A stretch of 30,748 nt of DNA, taken from IMG/VR virus record IMGVR_UViG_3300021425_000116, positions 1-30,748 of that record, one strand, 5' to 3'. The notes beneath the pieces are model-generated. The model made no database searches. It had not been told where the DNA came from and was given only the letters and a program-made list of their open reading frames with translations. How positions within the stretch are numbered: the first letter of the stretch is position 1; the number at the start of each line of letters is the position of its first letter. The stretch is from a virus. Below, in pieces: positions 1-30,196 of the stretch. A program made the translations under genes and the position numbers.

Positions 1-2326
1 TTGGGTTACCAGAGCCTCCAAACCCAACCGGACGATAGATATCTGGATCATATCCATTGTATGTAACGTTACCTGTTGTTACAGCCTTATCGGGCATTAA
101 GAAAGGAACAACTGTCTCGAAGAAGACATTTGCGGGATTGCCACCGTTCGCTTCCGCTGTTGCAAATTGAGCTTGAGTGAAGTTAATCGCTGTTACACCA
201 TCCGTAGACTTCAAAGTAAACTCGTTACCTTTCGGACCAACTACAGAATCTACTTGATAAATTGCGCCAGGCTCTAAGCCTCCAATAGTCGCAATTGTAT
301 CTCCGGCTTGAGCGAATCGAACGTGTTGTCCAAATGTTACTTTACCTTCAGTTAACTTCAACTGATTATCAGTATCACATACAACTCGAATCTTCTTCTT
401 TTCTTTGAGTAAGTTTGGATCGTAGACACCAGCGTGAACCATAATCAGGCCGTCACGAAGAGCAACCAAGTTACCTGCAAATCCTCGCTCACCAGTTACT
501 GTTGTTTCTACGTTTTCAAAATCAAAGTTAGCAATAACTTTATCACTAAGATCTTCCTGCTTTACGTAGTTAGTATTATTAGTAGCGTAGCCCAGCTTAT
601 CTGTCAAATCAAAAGTGATGAGTCTCTTAAGATATTGATGCCTAGGCTTTTCCGTAACATTCTGAGATGATACTGAAAGTCCAGCATCTTGATAGTACAT
701 CGACATATTATATTTTGTTTCTGCGATACCGCCGCCAGCAATATCGTTCTTGAATCCTTCAACAACAAAGTCCGCAATATCTCGTTGACACTTATACTTG
801 ACCTCAGCAAGCGTAAATGTTCTTCCGTACTTACCTGTGTATGCAGTAGCAGTATCGTCTGTAATTGGATTATTAGATTCGTCAAAGTAAGTTGAAACTA
901 CTCTATCGTTGTATGGATTTGATGTAGCCGCACCACTATCACTAAAAGTAGAAACAAAGTATCCCCAATAGTTTTTCTTAACGTCATAGAATGTGTCAAT
1001 TTGTCCACGGCTACCATACGAGAATCCAGCGATACCTGTCCAGTTTACGGGAGTTGTGTAATGATTGCTAGATGCTTCCAAGTTAGAATTTACTGTTCCG
1101 ACAAGGCTCTGAAGCTTTGTGATAGCTGCAGCACTCAAGTCTGGATCTGCTCCAATGTCTGTGCTTAGCTGAGTATAAAATGCTCCCTCAAACGCTGAGA
1201 AGTTTGGGATCAGTGCTGTCGTGAAATTAGTCAGATTCCAAATTGTGTGCGCTGTTCCACCCCACTCCATATCTTGAAGGAAAAAGTCTATCCAATAGTC
1301 GGCGTCTCTCTTACACTTTTCTTCTACAAGTCGAATCAGTTCAAGACCGTCATCTACACCGCCGTCTTCTGCTGATCCTACTGCCCCAGTTCCGTAAATA
1401 CCTCGTGCAAGATCGTAATAATAGTTGTTGACTACTTCACCTTCAACTGTATTTGTGTCAGTAGCGTCTGGTCCAGATCCAGTAAATGTACCGCCGCCCT
1501 CAATATTGAGAGTATTAGAGCTTTGGTCGTAGGCTACAACAATAGTAGCATAAGTCGCTTCGACAAGATCGAATCTCTTACCGGTAAGAATTTCTCTATC
1601 CCTTACTAAAAGATTTGGAGAAGAGGCAATCTCTTTTTCACCTTGTCCGCAAAAACGATAATCGTCAACCTGTGTTACTGATACATTTGAGCCAGTTTCT
1701 TGTGGACCTCTCTTTGGAGTTTGTCCCGCAACACCATACTGCGTAGAGGGCGATCTAGATACAGACTGAGTTCTACGAACACATGAGAAGTTATCTCCTA
1801 CGCCACTGTTTTTAGTTTCCCAATAGTATCCGTCGAAGTTATCGAAAATACCATACTTACGGATCACAGGATTTCGAGCGTATCCGGCAGCAGAAATAGT
1901 AGACTTAATACCGAATGTAGCCGCTGATACTCGACCTGGCTGATAGCGGAAGAAACGCTTTGATGTCAGTACAGCAGTCTTATTTCTAGGCGCTTCAACC
2001 AGAGCACCCGCTTCGTTAGGAAGGTGCTTAATACCGTGTCCGGCGAGATAAAATTCGGGAGCGTTTGACCATTCTGATGGGTTAACGTCATATGTGTTTA
2101 CATCAGCGAAGATACCAAGCGCTACTTCCGCTCGGGGAATACCAAGAAGCGAAAGTGCAACTTCTGACTGTACTTTGTTTTGCTCTTCTACGGGAATCGC
2201 AGTTTGATCTGAAGCAAGGACAACAGGAATCGACTTCTCAGCAGGCTGTTGACCGGGCGAGACTGGTGTAGTCCGTCCTACGGTTACAATACTGGAATTA
2301 TTATTTACATTAGTAATGCTAGACAT
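1..2326 (-). CDS. Large virion structural/fibre protein, 3' end beyond window
   Basis: An open frame of 775 codons runs from an ATG at 2326 to the left edge without a stop, so the C-terminus is missing. The start is fixed by a TAATG overlap with the upstream fibre gene and a good Shine-Dalgarno (AAGGAAGGA) about 9 nt before it. The N-terminus (SSITNVNNNSSIVTV, then IPVVLASDQTAIPVEEQ) and the KTAVLTSKRFFRYQPGRVS stretch resemble, from memory, large structural proteins of T4-like marine phages. Two copies of a repeat with the pattern KCxRDxxx...D...GG lie at about 1234-1342 and 689-805, a pattern seen in long phage fibres. I infer a baseplate-attached fibre or other tail structural protein; the exact role is unknown. 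Confidence 0.8.
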   Translation of the reverse strand, partial: MSSITNVNNNSSIVTVGRTTPVSPGQQPAEKSIPVVLASDQTAIPVEEQNKVQSEVALSLLGIPRAEVALGIFADVNTYDVNPSEWSNAPEFYLAGHGIKHLPNEAGALVEAPRNKTAVLTSKRFFRYQPGRVSAATFGIKSTISAAGYARNPVIRKYGIFDNFDGYYWETKNSGVGDNFSCVRRTQSVSRSPSTQYGVAGQTPKRGPQETGSNVSVTQVDDYRFCGQGEKEIASSPNLLVRDREILTGKRFDLVEATYATIVVAYDQSSNTLNIEGGGTFTGSGPDATDTNTVEGEVVNNYYYDLARGIYGTGAVGSAEDGGVDDGLELIRLVEEKCKRDADYWIDFFLQDMEWGGTAHTIWNLTNFTTALIPNFSAFEGAFYTQLSTDIGADPDLSAAAITKLQSLVGTVNSNLEASSNHYTTPVNWTGIAGFSYGSRGQIDTFYDVKKNYWGYFVSTFSDSGAATSNPYNDRVVSTYFDESNNPITDDTATAYTGKYGRTFTLAEVKYKCQRDIADFVVEGFKNDIAGGGIAETKYNMSMYYQDAGLSVSSQNVTEKPRHQYLKRLITFDLTDKLGYATNNTNYVKQEDLSDKVIANFDFENVETTVTGERGFAGNLVALRDGLIMVHAGVYDPNLLKEKKKIRVVCDTDNQLKLTEGKVTFGQHVRFAQAGDTIATIGGLEPGAIYQVDSVVGPKGNEFTLKSTDGVTAINFTQAQFATAEANGGNPANVFFETVVPFLMPDKAVTTGNVTYNGYDPDIYRPVGFGGSGNP

Positions 2327-5300
2327 TAAAGTATCCTTCCTTGCGCTAAGACAAACTTATCTGTGATATTTATCTGACCTATGTTTTGGCCATTAGTTAA
2401 GTTGCTTGCAGTAATGGCCTCTGCGACAGTCTGACCCGATACGGAACCATTGAATCTAATTTGCACTACAAACGACGATCCATTTTGAACAATTGAATAA
2501 ACTTCTCCAGTATTCACCTGATTAGCACTATTGCCAGCAGGTTGATTGCTCCATCCTGCATGGAATCCGTTAAATGCCACTGGAGTTCCTTGATCAAGAA
2601 CAATGCTAGGAGCTAAGTATCCGCTCAAGACATCAGTTACAAGTATTTGATATATAGCATCAGTTTCTGGCACACCAGTTCCTGCGTAGTCAAATTCGCC
2701 TGCGTTAGTTCCTTGTGGCAACCATCCAGTTACACCCGTTATATCTGCTGCCTTAACTTGCTGTTCGTATGATGCTGACCATGCCCATCCAATATGATCA
2801 TTATCTCTAGCATACATTGCTGTAAATGATCTATTACCCACTGAGGTCTGGAAGATCTTACCACCGCTATTAGTAACGCCATTGAATGTTTGATCAACAG
2901 TTAAAGTTGTGCTTGTAGAATCTCCATTGATTGTATAGAGTCCATTATTTTGATCACTATCGACGATCTCAATCGAATCTCCATCTAAGAATCCAGACAA
3001 ATCTGTAGTCGTGGACGTAATAGTGCTACCGGAAAAGTTTAAGTCTTCATTTGGATTTGCATCAACGATAAACGGTGCCTTCTTAACAGACGCTACATCG
3101 GCTTGTGGAATCTGGAATCCGAAGATACCTTCCGCTCTAGTTTCGTAAGTCGTATTTGAGATAAGTGGAATAGAAGTCACGTTTTGTGGAGAGTAAATTT
3201 CCTCAACTCCAGTTGTCCCAGACTTCTTAAGAGCAAATGATTCAAAGCTCAAAGTACCAACTACTGTTGACGCAGTAGGATTAAGTGAGTTGTAGTTGGT
3301 ACTAGCTGTTTGAAGTAGATTAAACGCACTACCATTTTCTTGATATACAAACTGATCACTCGAAAATAGATCTGAAGATAGATATGCTTCTGTCAAATCT
3401 ACGTTGATAACATCGTATTCAGAGTTCAGGCTATCTGGAGTTGGTAAGAACTCGTTAGCAGGTCCAATCAGAACGTTTGGAGACGATACAAAGAATCGTG
3501 ATCCGTAAATAAACAACCCGCTTCCGCAGTTGTTAATAATATTGTTCGCTACTACGCCCTTATCTGTCAGAGAAACATTGACATTACCAGTATAATTCTC
3601 AAAGCGGCATGACGTAATCAATGTTGTGAATGCGGCGTCAGCAACGATTGGATTATATTCATATCTATCTGATAATCCACTATTTAAGAAATCGCAAGTT
3701 GTAATCTTTAAGTTTGTAATACCAGGTGAATAGACTCCGCCTCCAGCCACATCGAAGACTCTAACTCTATCGATAGTTACGTCAATAGGATTAATACCAA
3801 GATCAATCGCATAATTCTTATCCCCATCAGCTACATCGTTGTAAAGGAAAGAGTTCTTCACGTTTCCATCGAGATCGAATCCAACAAGTGTAATCGTTTC
3901 CGCACCCTGATCTGATAGTGATTTGATCATCTTATTATTCAAAACACCCGTTTGACCTCCAGACCAAGGAAGTCTAATTATTTTAGTAACGGCTGTAGTT
4001 CCTTCTAAACCAAACTTGCTAGGAACTTCAAGTCCATCAGAAATATAAGTTTTAGCATTGAGAAGAATATTCTTTCGACCAATTGCAGCGTTAGCATTAA
4101 TCGCAGATTGTATAATAGAAGTATCATTGTGACAAAGTGTGCAATCTCTATTTGTATTTACGTAGAGAGCAGAGCTAAGCGTCAATGTCGTTGTATCTGC
4201 AACTGTATTTTGTGTTGAAGTTTCGATCTGAACATCAGCCCATCCTCTTTGAGGTTGAGTTGGGGCTGCTACTGGGAAGTGAATTACAGTAGCGTAAGTA
4301 TTATCAATAGCGACTGTCGCTTCGATCTCGCCTTGCTTGACGTAAGAAAACTCACCATCTTTTCCCGACCAAGTTGTATAGTCAAACGTGAAATAGTCAA
4401 TCCACTGATTGTTTACAGTTTCCTTCGGCCCTAAAACTGCTGTCAATTTATATGTGGTATCGCCTCCTTGCTGACGATATAACGCAATTCCTTTGCCTGC
4501 TGGAATGTTCGAAAACTGTACACGAATAAAATAATCTGAGTTAAATTGCTCATATACATCACTGGCGCTAGACTCTGTTGGCACTGCGATTTCAACAGAA
4601 GCAGTTGTTGACGCAACCTTACTGATTTTACCGTCTTGTAAATCAAATAGTGCGGCTCTATACGAAAAGTCTACTGCGACTGTTCCGGGTTTTGCACCTA
4701 CAGCTTCTACAAATCCAGCACGATTAGCTGATAAACTAAATCCAGACTGCTCATACGCATCCATGTCCTCGATTGAATCATCAAGCGATGCGCCGAAGAT
4801 TCGAAGAGTCTGTCCCTTCTGATAGTTTTCAAACACGTCTGCGGAAGGGATTTCTACTATGCTAGATTGACTTGCTGTTACACTCTGAAACTCTGCCGCA
4901 GTATCTAAAAGACTGTCACGAATAAGTCCGTTGTCGAATGCCGCTGTAAATTGATTGTAGAATCGACCAAAGTTTTCAACAAAGAAATCGTCCACTCTTT
5001 CATCGGTATAGTAAAGATTTGTATTTTCCGTTACATATCGAGTCGATATTTCTGTCGCTGTTTGAGTCGTTACATTACCATTAGAATCTTCTATACTGAA
5101 TTGACGTATCAGTCTAGAGTTTGGTTCGTCGAATTGAATGTAATTGTTGTCATTCGATAACTGAGTTAAATTTACGGGAATATCTGGAGTATTAGTAAAA
5201 TTATCGTAGTTTAAGAAATAGTCGCCAGTCTTATATCCAGAAGTTGACACAAGGCCAGTATCGTGATACAGTCGAGTCGCATTTAAATCATTGATTGTGC

Positions 5301-5517
5301 CCACAAGGCTTGGATTGTCATCATGAGCGTTTAATGCATCAACGATTAATCCTGCGTTCGATGTAAAGAAGTCTGTAGATACAATGGCTTCTTTTAGTTC
5401 ACCAAACTCGATCTTCTTCGACGCAGTTTCACTATTATCAGAAACAGCAAATAGATCACTGTCTGTAATAGTAGTGCTATCGAGTGGTAGTAGATCACTA
5501 AATCTTACTTCTGCCAT
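2326..5517 (-). CDS. Tail fibre/spike-like protein with beta-helix region
   Basis: This 1063-residue protein starts MAEVRFSDLLPLD, an opening common among phage fibres that attach to the baseplate. Residues about 110-130 carry an FTNTPDIPVNLTQLSND segment typical of marine T4-like fibres. The middle (about 460-660) starts with an SIIQSAINANAAIGRKNILLNA stretch and short repeated coils (LKITTCDFLNSG, ITSCRFENYTGN, GVVANNIINNCG), which look like a right-handed parallel beta-helix of the pectate-lyase type. At about 825-893 is a FSGSTIT module also found twice in the gp7-like protein. No catalytic motif was recognised. It probably acts in host recognition or surface glycan binding. It begins 43 nt after the S74 fibre gene, with its own late-promoter motif, and ends in a TAATG overlap. 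Confidence 0.85.
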   Translation of the reverse strand: MAEVRFSDLLPLDSTTITDSDLFAVSDNSETASKKIEFGELKEAIVSTDFFTSNAGLIVDALNAHDDNPSLVGTINDLNATRLYHDTGLVSTSGYKTGDYFLNYDNFTNTPDIPVNLTQLSNDNNYIQFDEPNSRLIRQFSIEDSNGNVTTQTATEISTRYVTENTNLYYTDERVDDFFVENFGRFYNQFTAAFDNGLIRDSLLDTAAEFQSVTASQSSIVEIPSADVFENYQKGQTLRIFGASLDDSIEDMDAYEQSGFSLSANRAGFVEAVGAKPGTVAVDFSYRAALFDLQDGKISKVASTTASVEIAVPTESSASDVYEQFNSDYFIRVQFSNIPAGKGIALYRQQGGDTTYKLTAVLGPKETVNNQWIDYFTFDYTTWSGKDGEFSYVKQGEIEATVAIDNTYATVIHFPVAAPTQPQRGWADVQIETSTQNTVADTTTLTLSSALYVNTNRDCTLCHNDTSIIQSAINANAAIGRKNILLNAKTYISDGLEVPSKFGLEGTTAVTKIIRLPWSGGQTGVLNNKMIKSLSDQGAETITLVGFDLDGNVKNSFLYNDVADGDKNYAIDLGINPIDVTIDRVRVFDVAGGGVYSPGITNLKITTCDFLNSGLSDRYEYNPIVADAAFTTLITSCRFENYTGNVNVSLTDKGVVANNIINNCGSGLFIYGSRFFVSSPNVLIGPANEFLPTPDSLNSEYDVINVDLTEAYLSSDLFSSDQFVYQENGSAFNLLQTASTNYNSLNPTASTVVGTLSFESFALKKSGTTGVEEIYSPQNVTSIPLISNTTYETRAEGIFGFQIPQADVASVKKAPFIVDANPNEDLNFSGSTITSTTTDLSGFLDGDSIEIVDSDQNNGLYTINGDSTSTTLTVDQTFNGVTNSGGKIFQTSVGNRSFTAMYARDNDHIGWAWSASYEQQVKAADITGVTGWLPQGTNAGEFDYAGTGVPETDAIYQILVTDVLSGYLAPSIVLDQGTPVAFNGFHAGWSNQPAGNSANQVNTGEVYSIVQNGSSFVVQIRFNGSVSGQTVAEAITASNLTNGQNIGQINITDKFVLAQGRIL
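2367..2374 (-). promoter_or_regulatory. Putative T4-type late promoter (GATAAATA)
   Basis: GATAAATA on the minus strand ends 41 nt before the ATG at 2326, inside the 3' end of the upstream fibre gene. It differs at one base from the T4 late consensus TATAAATA. Its spacing to the start codon matches the similar motif before the gene starting at 5517. Confidence 0.45.
2842..3045 (-). repeat. FSGSTIT module, copy in the tail fibre
   Basis: About 68 codons encode a beta-rich module starting DLNFSGSTITSTTTDLSGF and ending GGKIFQTS. It aligns by eye with two copies in the gp7-like gene (15767-15979 and 15270-15460), sharing FSGSxIT, DLS.F, IEI/ITI.S, N(N/D)G.(Y/F)T and a closing G-containing strand. 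This suggests exchange or duplication of a domain between two virion proteins. Confidence 0.6.
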
Positions 5518-5554: not shown

Positions 5555-5562
5555 TATTTATC
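5555..5562 (-). promoter_or_regulatory. Putative T4-type late promoter (GATAAATA)
   Basis: GATAAATA on the minus strand ends 38 nt upstream of the fibre start at 5517. It lies in one of the few real intergenic gaps of the operon, overlapping the stop codon of the S74 fibre gene. Confidence 0.55.
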
Positions 5563-20353: not shown

Positions 20354-20361
20354 TATTTATA
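20354..20361 (-). promoter_or_regulatory. Putative T4-type late promoter (TATAAATA)
   Basis: An exact TATAAATA on the minus strand lies in the 28-bp gap between the 653-residue gene and gp25, followed by an AAGGA ribosome-binding site and the ATG. The leader would be short (about 10 nt). Confidence 0.7.
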
Positions 20362-25468: not shown

Positions 25469-26084
25469 TCGATAATACTTCTGCTACGGACTTATCGATC
25501 TCTACGATAAATCGACGATCAAAAAGAATAATTTTCTTTCGTAATTCATTGAGTTCTTCTTCGTACTCATAGATACGAATGGGTCGAAAATCCGCTGCGA
25601 CGAAGGATTGATCAACGATGATTTCAGTGTTCGCTGTAGCGGGATTATTATCGTCTACAACAGGCGTGGGAAAGTTTTCGTAAGTATTAGGAGAGATACG
25701 AATTTGTCCGTTACGTCGATGAGCGTAATAAAGAATATTTTCGGTGATCGTTGTGTTCTGTGTCCATTCAATGACAGCTTGACCGGTAGCGTTTGCTTTT
25801 TCAGCGTACTGGACTTTAATATATTCGTCGAGATTATATTGTGTCTTTGGCCATGACGTATACGGATCAATAATATTATTAGCGAGGAGTACGAGCCAAG
25901 CGTAGGACGAATCATTGTAATAATAAAATGCAACGTCCTCGGGTCGCTCACCGTCTTTGACTTCATACGGAACGTAATTATAAAGTACGCCGTCTTTTTC
26001 TGAATTAATTACGACTCGACGAGTGATATCAATCGTAGATAAATTATTTTGTTTTGTCTTGGGAAATTTATTAAAATAACTCAT
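25461..26084 (-). CDS. gp53: gp53-like baseplate wedge protein
   Basis: The 207 residues begin MSYFNKFPKTKQNNLSTIDI. A region at about 38-82 (VPYEVKDGERPEDVAFYYYN, then SYAWLVLLANNIIDPYTSWP) is characteristic of T4 gp53 (196 residues) and resembles a LysM-like fold. In T4, gp53 is one of the last wedge proteins added; it clamps adjacent wedges together around the hub with gp6 and gp25. The C-terminus EYEEELNELRKKIILFDRRF is helical. Start by TAATG overlap with the gp48-like gene. Confidence 0.92.
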   Translation of the reverse strand: MSYFNKFPKTKQNNLSTIDITRRVVINSEKDGVLYNYVPYEVKDGERPEDVAFYYYNDSSYAWLVLLANNIIDPYTSWPKTQYNLDEYIKVQYAEKANATGQAVIEWTQNTTITENILYYAHRRNGQIRISPNTYENFPTPVVDDNNPATANTEIIVDQSFVAADFRPIRIYEYEEELNELRKKIILFDRRFIVEIDKSVAEVLSNE

Positions 26085-27181
26085 TAGCCACCTCCCTCTC
26101 CAGTCGTAGATCCTGTCGCAGCACCTTCCGTATTGACATTTCCGTTGGGTACAATTCCAATTGCTTCGTTAATGACATCATCAATTGTACTTCCATCAAA
26201 ATCTAATCCAGCGAGCGGATCAATGGTTTGTTCTCCAGTTTGATTAGCGCTGGAATCGCTTGTGCCTACTCCGAATCCACCTTGAGGATAATCTTTTGAA
26301 GTCCAGATAGATGCTTCTTGGACTGTCATGGAAATTCGAATCTGCGCTGGCTTTCCGCCTTTTAAAATTGCTACGCCGTTCGGCGTAAAATCTGTGACAA
26401 AATTCTGAACCATACAAGGCTTCAGTCTATAATAATAATCCTCTTTAATTCCTGAGAATTTAATATCCAATAAACTAGGATATTGTAGCAAGCCACGATC
26501 TAATGCGGACACACCCGAAGTTTCTCCCCCGACTGCTTCGTAAGATGGAACAATATTTCTACGAATTTCCGCAATAATATTTTTAATAAATTCTGAATCG
26601 GATGGACTTTCTGGAGAGAGGAGCCATTCGAATGTGTGTGTCTTCAGATCGACTCCATTAAATACAAGTGTAGCGAATGGATTAACAGCTTCTCCTGTTC
26701 CAACACCAAAGCCATTTGTAACATCGGGAGCGACTGAAGCGAGACCTGCTTTTGCGAAGAATGCAGCATCAGCCGTAGCTCCGCTTAATTTATTTAAAGC
26801 GGTCTCATATTTTCCTTGCAATACTTCGCCTGTCGCTTCGCCTGCTGATTTTCCGGCCGCTTCGATTGCATTAAATACTCCCTTTACCTTATTACCAATT
26901 TCATTAGGATTTGATGCGGCTTGTGCTGAAAGTGTTCCAAGTATACCTAATTCATTTTGTCCTACCTGAACGGTAAGTGAGTCAGACATAACTGTAGGAA
27001 GCGGAAGAATAATTGTTGGACTTCCATTATTTAATTGAGCCGCTCCAGTTTCAGTATATGAATAATTTCTAAATTGAAGTCGAATGTGATAATCCCCAAG
27101 CACACCCGGATAAGTCTCTACACGACTCAGCGCTGAGCGACTTGCCTTTCGTTGAGCAATAAATGTTTCTGCTGAAGTCAT
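26084..27181 (-). CDS. gp48: gp48-like baseplate tube cap protein
   Basis: The 365 residues match T4 gp48 (364) in size and in motifs: NPFATLVFNGVDLKTHTFEW, then LLSPESPSDSEFIKNIIAEI (about 167-207), LLQYPSLLDIKFSG, and CMVQNFVTDFTPNGVAILKG, then PAQIRISMTVQEASIW (about 265-300). In T4, gp48 caps the hub and, with gp54, starts tail-tube polymerisation. The centre (about 88-160) is Ala/Gly-rich and helical, and the C-terminal 60 residues are low-complexity Gly/Ser/Asp-rich. It is the first gene of the long minus-strand unit; a TATAAATA late-promoter motif ends 41 nt before its ATG. Confidence 0.88.
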   Translation of the reverse strand: MTSAETFIAQRKASRSALSRVETYPGVLGDYHIRLQFRNYSYTETGAAQLNNGSPTIILPLPTVMSDSLTVQVGQNELGILGTLSAQAASNPNEIGNKVKGVFNAIEAAGKSAGEATGEVLQGKYETALNKLSGATADAAFFAKAGLASVAPDVTNGFGVGTGEAVNPFATLVFNGVDLKTHTFEWLLSPESPSDSEFIKNIIAEIRRNIVPSYEAVGGETSGVSALDRGLLQYPSLLDIKFSGIKEDYYYRLKPCMVQNFVTDFTPNGVAILKGGKPAQIRISMTVQEASIWTSKDYPQGGFGVGTSDSSANQTGEQTIDPLAGLDFDGSTIDDVINEAIGIVPNGNVNTEGAATGSTTGEGGG

Positions 27182-27192
27182 TCGATAACCTT

Positions 27193-27200
27193 TATAAATA
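27193..27200 (+). promoter_or_regulatory. Putative T4-type late promoter (TATAAATA), rightward
   Basis: An exact TATAAATA on the plus strand ends 39 nt before the gp4 ATG, so it should drive gp4, the AOX and probably the genes beyond. It faces the minus-strand motif at 27222-27229. Confidence 0.75.
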
Positions 27201-27221
27201 ATAAGTTAGAGTTGTCTACTA

Positions 27222-27229
27222 TATTTATA
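27222..27229 (-). promoter_or_regulatory. Putative T4-type late promoter (TATAAATA), leftward
   Basis: An exact TATAAATA on the minus strand ends 41 nt before the gp48 ATG, heading the baseplate operon. It lies downstream of the rightward promoter, so the two initial transcripts would overlap by a few bases. Confidence 0.75.
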
Positions 27230-27238
27230 CTGAATTCT

Positions 27239-27685
27239 ATGGGAAAATATTATCAAGGAAAATTCAATCCAAGAAATCCGAAAAAATATTTGGGTGATCC
27301 CACAAATATCATTTATCGATCAGGGTGGGAATTAAAATTATGCTCATATTTAGACAAGCATCCAAACGTCACTGGATGGGCATCAGAAGAGGTTGTCATT
27401 CCATATCGTAGTCCCATAGATAATAAAATACATCGATACTTTGCGGATTTTTATGTTGAGCAAATAAATAGAGACGGGAAAAAAGAAACACTCTTAATAG
27501 AGGTAAAGCCTAAAGCACAGACGAAGCCTCCTAAGAAACCTGATAACGTGAGGAATAGAAGATTTATTAATGAAGTCAAGACTTGGGGAGTCAATCAGGC
27601 AAAATGGAAAGCGGCTCAAGAGTTTTGTTTAGATAGAGGCTGGAAATTCCAGATCATGACGGAGGACGAACTTGGAATCAAATGA
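27239..27685 (+). CDS. gp4: gp4-like head completion nuclease
   Basis: From the ATG at 27239 the product is 148 residues (T4 gp4 has 150). The motifs match T4 gp4: KFNPRNPKKYLGDPTNIIYR followed by SGWELK (E31), WASEEVVIPYRSP, RYFADFYV (D70), LLIEVKPKAQTKPPK (E88-x-K90) and RFINEVKTWGVNQAKWKAAQ. The D...ExK arrangement is that of PD-(D/E)xK / TnsA-like nucleases. In T4, gp4 completes filled heads so tails can join. I chose this ATG over a TTG 27 bases upstream because T4 gp4 begins at the equivalent point; no strong Shine-Dalgarno precedes either. Its stop overlaps the AOX start as ATGA. Confidence 0.92.
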   Translation: MGKYYQGKFNPRNPKKYLGDPTNIIYRSGWELKLCSYLDKHPNVTGWASEEVVIPYRSPIDNKIHRYFADFYVEQINRDGKKETLLIEVKPKAQTKPPKKPDNVRNRRFINEVKTWGVNQAKWKAAQEFCLDRGWKFQIMTEDELGIK

Positions 27686-28245
27686 GAGATACGATAGCAA
27701 GAAGTCAAACAAAGTTTTTTAGATTTTTCGCTGACACATTCTTTGCGAAACGTTATGGACATAGGGCAGTAGTTCTAGAAACAATTGCAGGTGTACCGGG
27801 TATGGTAGCGGGGATGTGGATTCATCTCAAGTCGCTACGACAAATGAAAACCGGATATGGTCCTAAAATTCGAGAACTTCTTTCTGAAGCAGAAAATGAA
27901 AGAATGCATCTCATGTTTTTTATTGAAATTGTAAAGCCCAATTGGCTTGAGCGGAATATTGTACTCATTGCTCAGTTAATTTTCTGGATTTATTATTTTA
28001 TTCTATATGTTTTCTTTCCTAAGACTGCGCATCGCATGATCCATTACTTCGAAGAGGAGGCTGTCCGTAGTTATACTGAATATCTTGAACTCATCAACAG
28101 TGGTATCATACGAGACGTTCCAGCGTCATCATTGTCCATCGATTACTACGGACTAAATAAAAATGCAAGACTCTCAGATATGATCAAGTGTATTCGAGAG
28201 GACGAAATGAAGCACAGTCGAGTCAACTATAGGATGTCGCTATAG
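27682..28245 (+). CDS. aox: Alternative oxidase (ubiquinol oxidase, di-iron)
   Basis: This 187-residue protein has all the hallmarks of alternative oxidase: RAVVLETIAGVPGMVAGMWI followed by HLKSLR (E33), LLSEAENERMHLMFFIEI (E73, H76), HYFEEEAVRSYTEYL (a ligand Glu among 124-126) and REDEMKHSRVN (E175, H178). All six di-iron ligands are therefore present, with conserved Tyr in SYTEYL. AOX is a monotopic inner-membrane enzyme that oxidises ubiquinol and reduces O2 to water without pumping protons; residues 89-112 are strongly hydrophobic. It is compact beside bacterial AOX of about 200-230 residues but appears complete. It resembles proteobacterial AOX more than cyanophage PTOX. It overlaps gp4 by ATGA and so probably shares the gp4 late transcript. 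I infer that it keeps quinol oxidation going in the infected cell. Confidence 0.95.
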   Translation: MRDTIARSQTKFFRFFADTFFAKRYGHRAVVLETIAGVPGMVAGMWIHLKSLRQMKTGYGPKIRELLSEAENERMHLMFFIEIVKPNWLERNIVLIAQLIFWIYYFILYVFFPKTAHRMIHYFEEEAVRSYTEYLELINSGIIRDVPASSLSIDYYGLNKNARLSDMIKCIREDEMKHSRVNYRMSL

Positions 28246-28680: not shown

Positions 28681-29031
28681 ATGGCGAAAAGAACAGTAGA
28701 GTTTGATGATCGAATCCCCAAATTCGCAGTATGGGCTATCGGTGTCGTATTCACAGCGTACTTCGCTATCGACAGTCTATACATCGATCCAACTGAACTG
28801 TCAGTCGATCAAGCGGAACAAAAAGCCGCTTATGAGGCTATCGGAGAGGATCTACAAACAAGAATCCTTATGAGTGAGTCTACACGATACGCACAAGTCG
28901 CTAAGTATTATCGAGACGAATTACAAAAGAGAGCGTTGACTGAAGCGGAGCAAGCGAGACTCGATCTAGTGGAGCGAGAGCAGTGTAGAATACGGAATGA
29001 GTTAGTGGACGGAAACGAGATCTGTAACTAA
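28681..29031 (+). CDS. Small membrane-anchored coiled-coil protein
   Basis: The 116 residues have an N-terminal membrane span (about 14-33, KFAVWAIGVVFTAYFAIDSL). A charged helical domain follows (about 40-110), rich in Glu, Gln, Arg and Ala and likely coiled coil, with Cys near the C-terminus (EQCRI and EICN). It starts five bases after the preceding membrane-protein gene, with AGGGG upstream, and ends in a TAATG overlap with the next gene. The two neighbouring membrane proteins share the same plan (N-terminal anchor then coiled coil) and may pair. The function is not recognised. Confidence 0.78.
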   Translation: MAKRTVEFDDRIPKFAVWAIGVVFTAYFAIDSLYIDPTELSVDQAEQKAAYEAIGEDLQTRILMSESTRYAQVAKYYRDELQKRALTEAEQARLDLVEREQCRIRNELVDGNEICN

Positions 29032-29621
29032 TGGCAGTACTCTTTAGCGATCTTCTAGCAAAAGGTATCCGTCAAGGAAAGGTTCCTGCACGTGAACAGG
29101 AAGCAAGGAACTGGTATCGAAGAACGGCTAGATCTTATACAAACGTCAACGAGCGTCAACTGCTCCGTGGTGATCGAGATCGCATGACAAGCAAGCCCAT
29201 GATAGGTGCTATGTACATGTTCTCTTACTCCGCTAAGAATCGAGCAACACTACCGTACTACGATAAATTTCCGTTGATCTTTCCGTTTCGAGTTGCGAAG
29301 GGTGGGTTCTATGGAATCAACATGCACTATCTACCCCCAGCGTTGAGAGCAAAGCTCATGGATTCGCTTTACGACATCACTAACAATAAAAAGTATGATG
29401 AGTCAACAAGACTCAAATTAAGTTATTCAGTATTATCTTCAGCATCAAAGTTTAAGGGCTTCAAGCCTTGTGTAAAACAATATCTAAATACTCAAGTTAA
29501 GAGTCGATTTGTATATGTCTATCCTTCAGAGTGGGATCTAGCGCTGTTTTTACCCGTAGAAAACTTTGTTGGAGCTTCGAAGCAAAAAGTGTGGGCCGAC
29601 TCCCGAAAGATGATTACTTAA
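29031..29621 (+). CDS. Conserved T4-like phage protein of unknown role
   Basis: This 196-residue basic protein starts MAVLFSDLLAKGIRQGKVPA. It contains PMIGAMYMFSYSAKN, LPYYDKFPLIFPFRVAKGGF, then YGINMHYLPPALRAKLMD (about 57-112), and FKPCVKQYLNTQVKSRFVYV followed by YPSEWDLALFLPVENFVGAS (about 143-182). From memory this pattern is widely conserved in T4-like marine phages beside head and baseplate genes, but I cannot attach a firm function. A DNA-end-protector (T4 gp2-like) role fits the T4 gene order near gp4 but is only a weak suggestion. Its start overlaps the previous stop (TAATG); its last 8 bases overlap the 3' end of the antisense HNH gene. Confidence 0.85.
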   Translation: MAVLFSDLLAKGIRQGKVPAREQEARNWYRRTARSYTNVNERQLLRGDRDRMTSKPMIGAMYMFSYSAKNRATLPYYDKFPLIFPFRVAKGGFYGINMHYLPPALRAKLMDSLYDITNNKKYDESTRLKLSYSVLSSASKFKGFKPCVKQYLNTQVKSRFVYVYPSEWDLALFLPVENFVGASKQKVWADSRKMIT

Positions 29622-30129
29622 GTTTGCCTCTAACCCATCCTTCGGGACATTCAAATGCTTGCGTTTGCTCTGTCCCGTTATTCCACCACTTCTTTCCTCT
29701 GACAGCATCAGCCAATTTTTTTCGAGTTTCTTTAGTTCTTTCGTATCGTCCCATCTTTTCAGTATTGGACTTAGGTTTACGCATCGCCTGCTTTGCTTCT
29801 TCGGACTTAGATTTACGCATTTTATCCAAAGTCTCTTTAGAATAAATTCCCGTCTTTCCTTTATTCCAAGCAGAGCGTCCCTTATTCGCTTTCCCGCAGC
29901 GGATTCCATTTTGTCGATAAATTTCTTTTAATATTTCCTCTTTTCCTATCTGCTTACTCAATCCTTGCCATGCTAAATAATCTTCAGTTAGCCCATACTT
30001 TTCGTATAGCTTTCGATGAGCTTCAGCGTGTTCTTCGACAGTAAGGGAAACGAGATTGGATGGGTCGTCTGTTCCGCCCATATGCTTAGGGACAATGTGA
30101 TGGGTATGATAAATACTATTGCTGGACAT
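29614..30129 (-). CDS. HNH homing endonuclease with NUMOD-like repeats
   Basis: The 171-residue protein has an HNH motif at the N-terminus (YHTHHIVPKHMGGTDDPSNL followed by VSLTVEEHAEAH; H10/H11, N25, H34, H38). From about residue 86 there is a chain of short basic DNA-binding repeats (WNKGKTGIYSKETLDKMRKS, EEAKQAMRKPK, TRKKLADAVRGKKWWNNG) resembling NUMOD3-type elements of phage homing endonucleases. It ends ECPEGWVRGKLK, a tail that seems familiar from cyanophage HNH enzymes. It lies antisense to its neighbours, has a strong AAGGAGG ribosome-binding site and a TATAAATA motif upstream, and looks like a free-standing mobile gene. It probably cuts an allele lacking the insertion. Confidence 0.9.
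   Translation of the reverse strand: MSSNSIYHTHHIVPKHMGGTDDPSNLVSLTVEEHAEAHRKLYEKYGLTEDYLAWQGLSKQIGKEEILKEIYRQNGIRCGKANKGRSAWNKGKTGIYSKETLDKMRKSKSEEAKQAMRKPKSNTEKMGRYERTKETRKKLADAVRGKKWWNNGTEQTQAFECPEGWVRGKLK
30108..30115 (+). promoter_or_regulatory. Possible late promoter (GATAAATA), rightward
   Basis: GATAAATA on the plus strand lies inside the 5' end of the HNH gene, about 96 nt before the ATG at 30211. It could serve the rightward genes, but a terminator-like hairpin lies in between, so this is weak. Confidence 0.3.
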
Positions 30130-30153: not shown

Positions 30154-30190
30154 GTAGTTGGAAGTTGCCGCTTCGTGAACTACATTTTTA
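30154..30190 (+). terminator. Possible rho-independent terminator, rightward
   Basis: GTAGTT pairs with AACTAC (outer stem) and GAAG with CTTC (inner stem) around a TTGCCG loop, with a small asymmetric bulge, followed by ATTTTTA. It would end rightward transcription before the 37-residue gene. The stem is imperfect, so confidence is moderate to low. Confidence 0.4.
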
Positions 30191-30196
30191 TTTATA
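30189..30196 (-). promoter_or_regulatory. Putative T4-type late promoter for HNH gene (TATAAATA)
   Basis: An exact TATAAATA on the minus strand ends 60 nt before the HNH ATG at 30129. It overlaps the T-run after the hairpin, so part of the match may be fortuitous. Confidence 0.5.

Follow-up and report, generated by a model that had tools for sequence, protein, structure and literature searches.

The 57-bp divergent gap between gp48 and gp4 in a marine T4-like phage fragment (27182..27238) contains two face-to-face boxes, both exact matches to TATAAATA, that on the evidence of their sequence and position are almost certainly T4-type late promoters. The fragment, referred to below as the window, is the whole 30.7-kb virus contig that was analysed, and it comprises a T4-like late region. 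The same facing pair is widely conserved at the gp4 junction of T4-like phages and is found in T4, of whose own arrangement the window is a new instance. It is apparently undescribed, since no account of it was found in the literature on divergent or overlapping T4 late promoters, of which the older T4 mapping work was thinly covered. The architecture of these junctions depends on the length of the gap, and we propose that the facing pair most probably represents the compact packing of two T4-type late promoters into a short gap, with alternate occupancy as a by-product.

The gap separates the first genes of two operons. On its left gp48, the baseplate tail tube cap (26084..27181, minus strand; PHROGs phrog_230, 6.9e-36), is followed by gp53 in a leftward baseplate operon. 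On its right gp4, the head closure or completion protein (27239..27685, plus strand; PHROGs phrog_218, 2.5e-60), which has a TnsA-like nuclease domain (PF08722), opens a rightward operon that continues with an alternative oxidase (AOX; 27682..28245, plus strand; PF01786, 1.7e-64) as its second gene and then gp2, the DNA end protector (29031..29621, plus strand; phrog_429, 9.1e-58). The AOX gene thus sits within the late gp4-gp2 operon. The sole related phage record found for it is that of C48C1 (62% identity), where, unlike its placement in the window, the gene adjoins clamp-loader genes. An HNH/NUMOD3 homing endonuclease gene (29614-30129, minus strand) lies antisense to the extreme end of gp2 and has an exact late box of its own (30189-30196, minus strand).

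The gp4 box occupies 27193..27200 on the plus strand and the gp48 box 27222..27229 on the minus strand, as a reading of the letters alone (the sequence-only reading) had reported and as a scan confirmed. The 8-bp late promoter sequence is therefore matched exactly on both strands, and boxes in the window precede the late structural genes gp4, gp48 and also gp25. The 5′ ends of the facing boxes lie 46 nt (gp4) and 48 nt (gp48) from the start codons, and the distances of 39 and 41 nt given in the sequence-only reading are right if counted from the 3′ ends. Late boxes of T4 are positioned at −13 to −6 relative to the start of transcription (PMC1524935). When this spacing is applied, transcription of gp4 is predicted to start at ∼27206 on the plus strand, with a leader of 33 nt, and that of gp48 at ∼27216 on the minus strand, with a leader of 35 nt. 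By arithmetic the 5′ ends of the two transcripts would overlap by ∼11 bp (27206..27216), in support of the slight overlap proposed for these facing promoters. The boxes are 21 bp apart with an outer span of 37 bp, and with the −12 to +2 region that is melted in the gp55 open complex (PMC7892883) the predicted melted regions, 27194-27207 and 27215-27228, do not overlap. Both starts are predicted to fall between two separate boxes, so the pair is not one shared symmetric −10 element. A Shine-Dalgarno-like AAAGG of gp48 (27189..27193, minus strand) has one base in common with the gp4 box on the opposite strand. Matches to sigma70-like promoters near the gap were at chance level (12 versus 9.9).

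Each of the four exact boxes in the window precedes a gene start on its own strand by 25–67 nt. One of them (20354..20361, minus strand) has its 5′ end 25 nt upstream of gp25, and a further box, GATAAATA, was found at 5562 before the gene at 2326-5517. The promoter in the gap is accordingly not the sole one for the baseplate operon, which corrects the sequence-only reading on this point. Four exact boxes compare with 1.88 expected and were reached in 12 of 100 shuffles, such that the raw count by itself is weak evidence of non-chance; a reversed-motif control was uninformative for the window because ATAAATA is the same when read backwards. From the window-wide box rate, the chance of two opposite-strand boxes in one 57-bp gap is ∼2e-6. 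Enrichment of the motif across a complete genome, which the sequence-only reading had suggested as a check, was found in the relative C48C1, with 25 occurrences of TATAAATA versus 4 for the reversed control pattern. The gp4|gp48 gap of C48C1 has its own facing boxes at 117582 (plus) and 117606 (minus).

Neither gp55 nor gp33 was found on the window fragment, a search limited to its 30.7 kb. In the contigs of 18 relatives, which are mostly short, gp33 is present in 14, and gp55 and gp45 are each present in the same two, of 145 kb and 99 kb. Late sigma factor and clamp genes are annotated in C48C1, and gp55 is present in S-ShM2 and Aeh1. The search for gp55- and gp33-like factors thus succeeded in the relatives and failed on the fragment itself, and the absence of a gp55-like factor, which would have counted against late promoters, does not hold for the relatives.

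To place the pair in a wider context gp4 was taken as the anchor, as a protein search of viral contigs with gp48 gave no relatives, gp48 being too divergent. Relatives were collected from viral contigs by three queries and supplemented with annotated isolates, gp4 and its divergent neighbour were located at each contig locus, and the loci were dereplicated to 72 junctions with little common sequence. A C was permitted at the second box position after the late box of Aeh1, which has been published as CTAAATA (PMC1524935). A face-to-face N[AC]TAAATA pair is present in 48 of the 72 junctions; 200 rounds of dinucleotide shuffling gave 0.27 on average and never more than 2. The strict NATAAATA pair is present in 27 (0.125 in shuffles). 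The gene opposite gp4 varies by group and can be gp48, gp53 or a tail-tube-like gene, indicating that the promoter arrangement persisted while the opposite gene changed. Geometry was measured for 46 pairs, after two junctions with apparent gaps of >100 bp and uncertain automatic start codons were omitted; several cyanophage upstream starts were called as TTG or GTG and are possibly off by a few codons. The spacer between the facing boxes averages 76% AT over these pairs, making the DNA downstream of each box AT-rich. Five junctions with gaps of 44–52 bp (L091, L180, L190, L192 and L201, from ViI-like phages, Vibrio D504 and DLP6) have one or no recognisable box, and the late box may depart from N[AC]TAAATA in these phages.

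Ordering the junctions by gap length separates the architectures. Gaps of 10–16 bp contain the plus-strand gp4 box only (eight junctions, accounting for 8 of the 9 plus-only junctions). In these (L023, L037, L042, L044, L047, L055, L061 and L076) the box lies 13–14 nt before the ATG, from which the late mRNA of gp4 is predicted to be leaderless, and in several the gp4 box shares bases with the start codon of gp48 (CATAAATA). Gaps of 31–67 bp contain the face-to-face pairs (46 junctions). The two junctions with gaps of 71 and 75 bp have separate back-to-back boxes with leaders of 33+39 and 33+35, which sum approximately to the gap. Two exceptions fall within the face-to-face range, one with a 54-bp gap, back-to-back boxes and a near-leaderless gp4 box (L021) and one with a 46-bp gap and overlapped boxes (L030). 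Nine junctions of 30–52 bp have a box only for the gene opposite gp4. At seven junctions (L014, L026, L050, L053, L064, L069 and L078) the gp48 box shares bases with the start codon of gp4 (TATTTATATG), and a recognisable gp4 box is absent.

Within the 46 facing pairs the inter-box spacing ranges from 7 to 28 bp and the outer span from 23 to 44 bp. Since the span is never below 23 bp, which leaves at least 7 bp between the boxes, both predicted starts lie between the boxes. In length the leaders are close to the leaders of 28 tandem late promoters from the same contigs (median 46 nt); they are not strictly constant and vary with the gap. In the group most like the window the mean distances of the boxes to the neighbouring start codon are 10 and 12 nt, and the boxes adjoin the neighbour's ribosome-binding site, a position that is expected if an 8-bp promoter lacking a −35 element is packed into the gap. 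The span varies less than under permuted gaps, where gap and leaders would be independent, and a direct constraint on the inter-box span is possible for this reason.

We propose that each promoter would consist of the 8-bp, −10-like box alone, read by a gp55-class phage late sigma factor, and that the two boxes would be interleaved face-to-face in a gap shorter than two normal late leaders combined. T4-type late promoters need no −35 element (PMC2988020), and the DNA upstream of the late polymerase may thus lie across the second promoter or the adjacent gene. Each of the boxes would then sit beside the ribosome-binding site of the opposite gene, the starts would lie between the boxes and each leader would cross the other box, which would make the facing layout the most compact start for two late operons running in opposite directions. 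Minimal promoters of this kind, without a −35 element and with a leader of normal length, fit an architecture ordered by gap length. The late polymerase would bind in one orientation, open the DNA beside one box and escape over the other box within ∼15–20 nt, freeing the site for the next polymerase to bind either way. One bound polymerase would cover both promoters, so that starts would alternate randomly, with relative output set by competition, and a dedicated regulator would be unnecessary for the alternation. Mutual exclusion of two polymerases at the window pair is very plausible from the geometry, as boxes spanning only 37 bp could not plausibly accommodate two polymerases together. Measurements on bidirectional promoters of E. 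coli have shown that competition between the opposed promoters matters only at high activity (PMC12825309). By analogy, because T4 late promoters are strongly activated, competition between the facing boxes is plausible.

The strongest of the alternatives is a regulatory device under selection, in which exclusion or occlusion at the pair fixes the ratio of head-completion to baseplate transcripts or cuts noise and which is maintained for that purpose. Persistence of the facing pair across several phage families despite the changing gene opposite gp4 could be read in this way, as could the less variable inter-box span, and at opposed E. coli promoters in common DNA polymerases do compete and noise is altered (PMC12825309). 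Gap length alone, however, predicts the architecture, and the facing geometry is evidently dispensable, as relatives with longer gaps have back-to-back boxes and those with gaps of 10–16 bp a single box. The span, moreover, covers the full 23–44 bp with no helical-phase preference by eye. We therefore consider a selected device unlikely, and on the gap-length evidence the geometry probably does not owe its existence to regulatory coupling. The suggestion in the sequence-only reading that the pair couples the two operons or switches between them is accordingly unsupported as it stands, the leaders being ordinary and the architecture following the gap. Nor is there a special link to AOX or to this phage, as the 4|53 junction of T4 carries the same pair without AOX.

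A second possibility is a switch read by replication, in which the orientation of the gp45 clamp, reflecting fork direction or lagging-strand history, selects the head-completion or the baseplate operon. In T4 the direction of late transcription is determined by which strand carries the break at which the clamp is loaded (PMC2988020), and at a site bound in a single orientation the clamp would on this basis choose the operon. We regard such a switch as improbable. It is very doubtful that TATAAATA...TATTTATA, as an inverted repeat, serves a dimeric factor as operator or hairpin in place of two promoters. The boxes are formally an inverted repeat, and their first two bases are identical in 15 of the 46 pairs, but the arms are a variable 7–28 bp apart and the leading bases show the independent variation of known late promoters (N at −13). 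These bases differ between the two boxes in 31 of the 46 pairs, such that the unit is not maintained as a perfect palindrome. The same box also occurs singly before other late genes, and each predicted transcript lacks one arm, making an RNA hairpin impossible in it. The operator or hairpin reading was rejected on the variable spacing and independent leading bases. Finally, a pair of AT-rich octamers arising by chance in a gap that is itself rich in AT, a reading for which the unexceptional number of exact boxes in the window might be cited, is scarcely credible and is refuted by the decisive conservation of the sequence pair across the dereplicated junctions.

The architectures of these junctions can also be followed in named phages. 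The 47-bp 4|53 gap of T4 (AF158101) consists of a plus-strand box, 7 bp and a minus-strand box, both exact TATAAATA, and no other exact TATAAATA boxes of T4 face each other within 150 bp; a second facing pair of late boxes is found at inh|segE. Facing pairs are also present in PEi20, STP4-a, an Acinetobacter T4-like phage, Sinorhizobium phiM12 and ACG-2014f, as well as in Salmonella SKML-39 (Ackermannviridae). Phage 65.2 (gap of 73) has back-to-back boxes like those of the 71- and 75-bp junctions, and no recognisable box was seen at the gp4 junction of DLP6. Overlapped, palindromic back-to-back late boxes occur at 26|51 in T4 (116450-116461; TATTTATAAATA) and at 48|4 in Aeh1 (L198; TATTTAGCTAAATA), and these overlapped forms represent an alternative compact divergent late promoter. 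Its presence in T4 makes the facing pair testable with classical T4 reagents, and the gp4 junction provides a natural system for studying polymerase competition at opposed minimal promoters. For annotation, a rule follows for late promoters in short divergent gaps, where gap length sets the architecture and facing boxes are at least 7 bp apart.

The closest known counterpart is T4 4|53, which like the window has exact TATAAATA boxes on both strands, facing each other in the divergent gap that precedes gp4. Across the gap lies gp53 in T4 and gp48 in the window, and the T4 boxes are only 7 bp apart with overlapping predicted melted regions, whereas those of the window are separated by 21 bp with no such overlap, its 5′ ends overlapping by 11 nt. 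T4 26|51 and Aeh1 48|4 also place two late boxes between divergent late genes that lie ∼50 bp apart, but their boxes share bases and point apart, with no 5′ overlap. The cyanophage NATAAATA late promoters (PMC2984593) are of the same box class, with facing CTAAATA/ATAAATA in the gp48|gp4 gap, although that gap is shorter (31–43 bp) and its gp48 box shares bases with the start codon of gp4. Bacterial bidirectional promoters (PMC12825309) likewise have opposed promoters in common DNA that cannot be occupied jointly. However, they are read by sigma70 and their starts flank or lie within one symmetric −10 element, in contrast to the window, where a phage late sigma factor would read two full boxes with the predicted starts between them.
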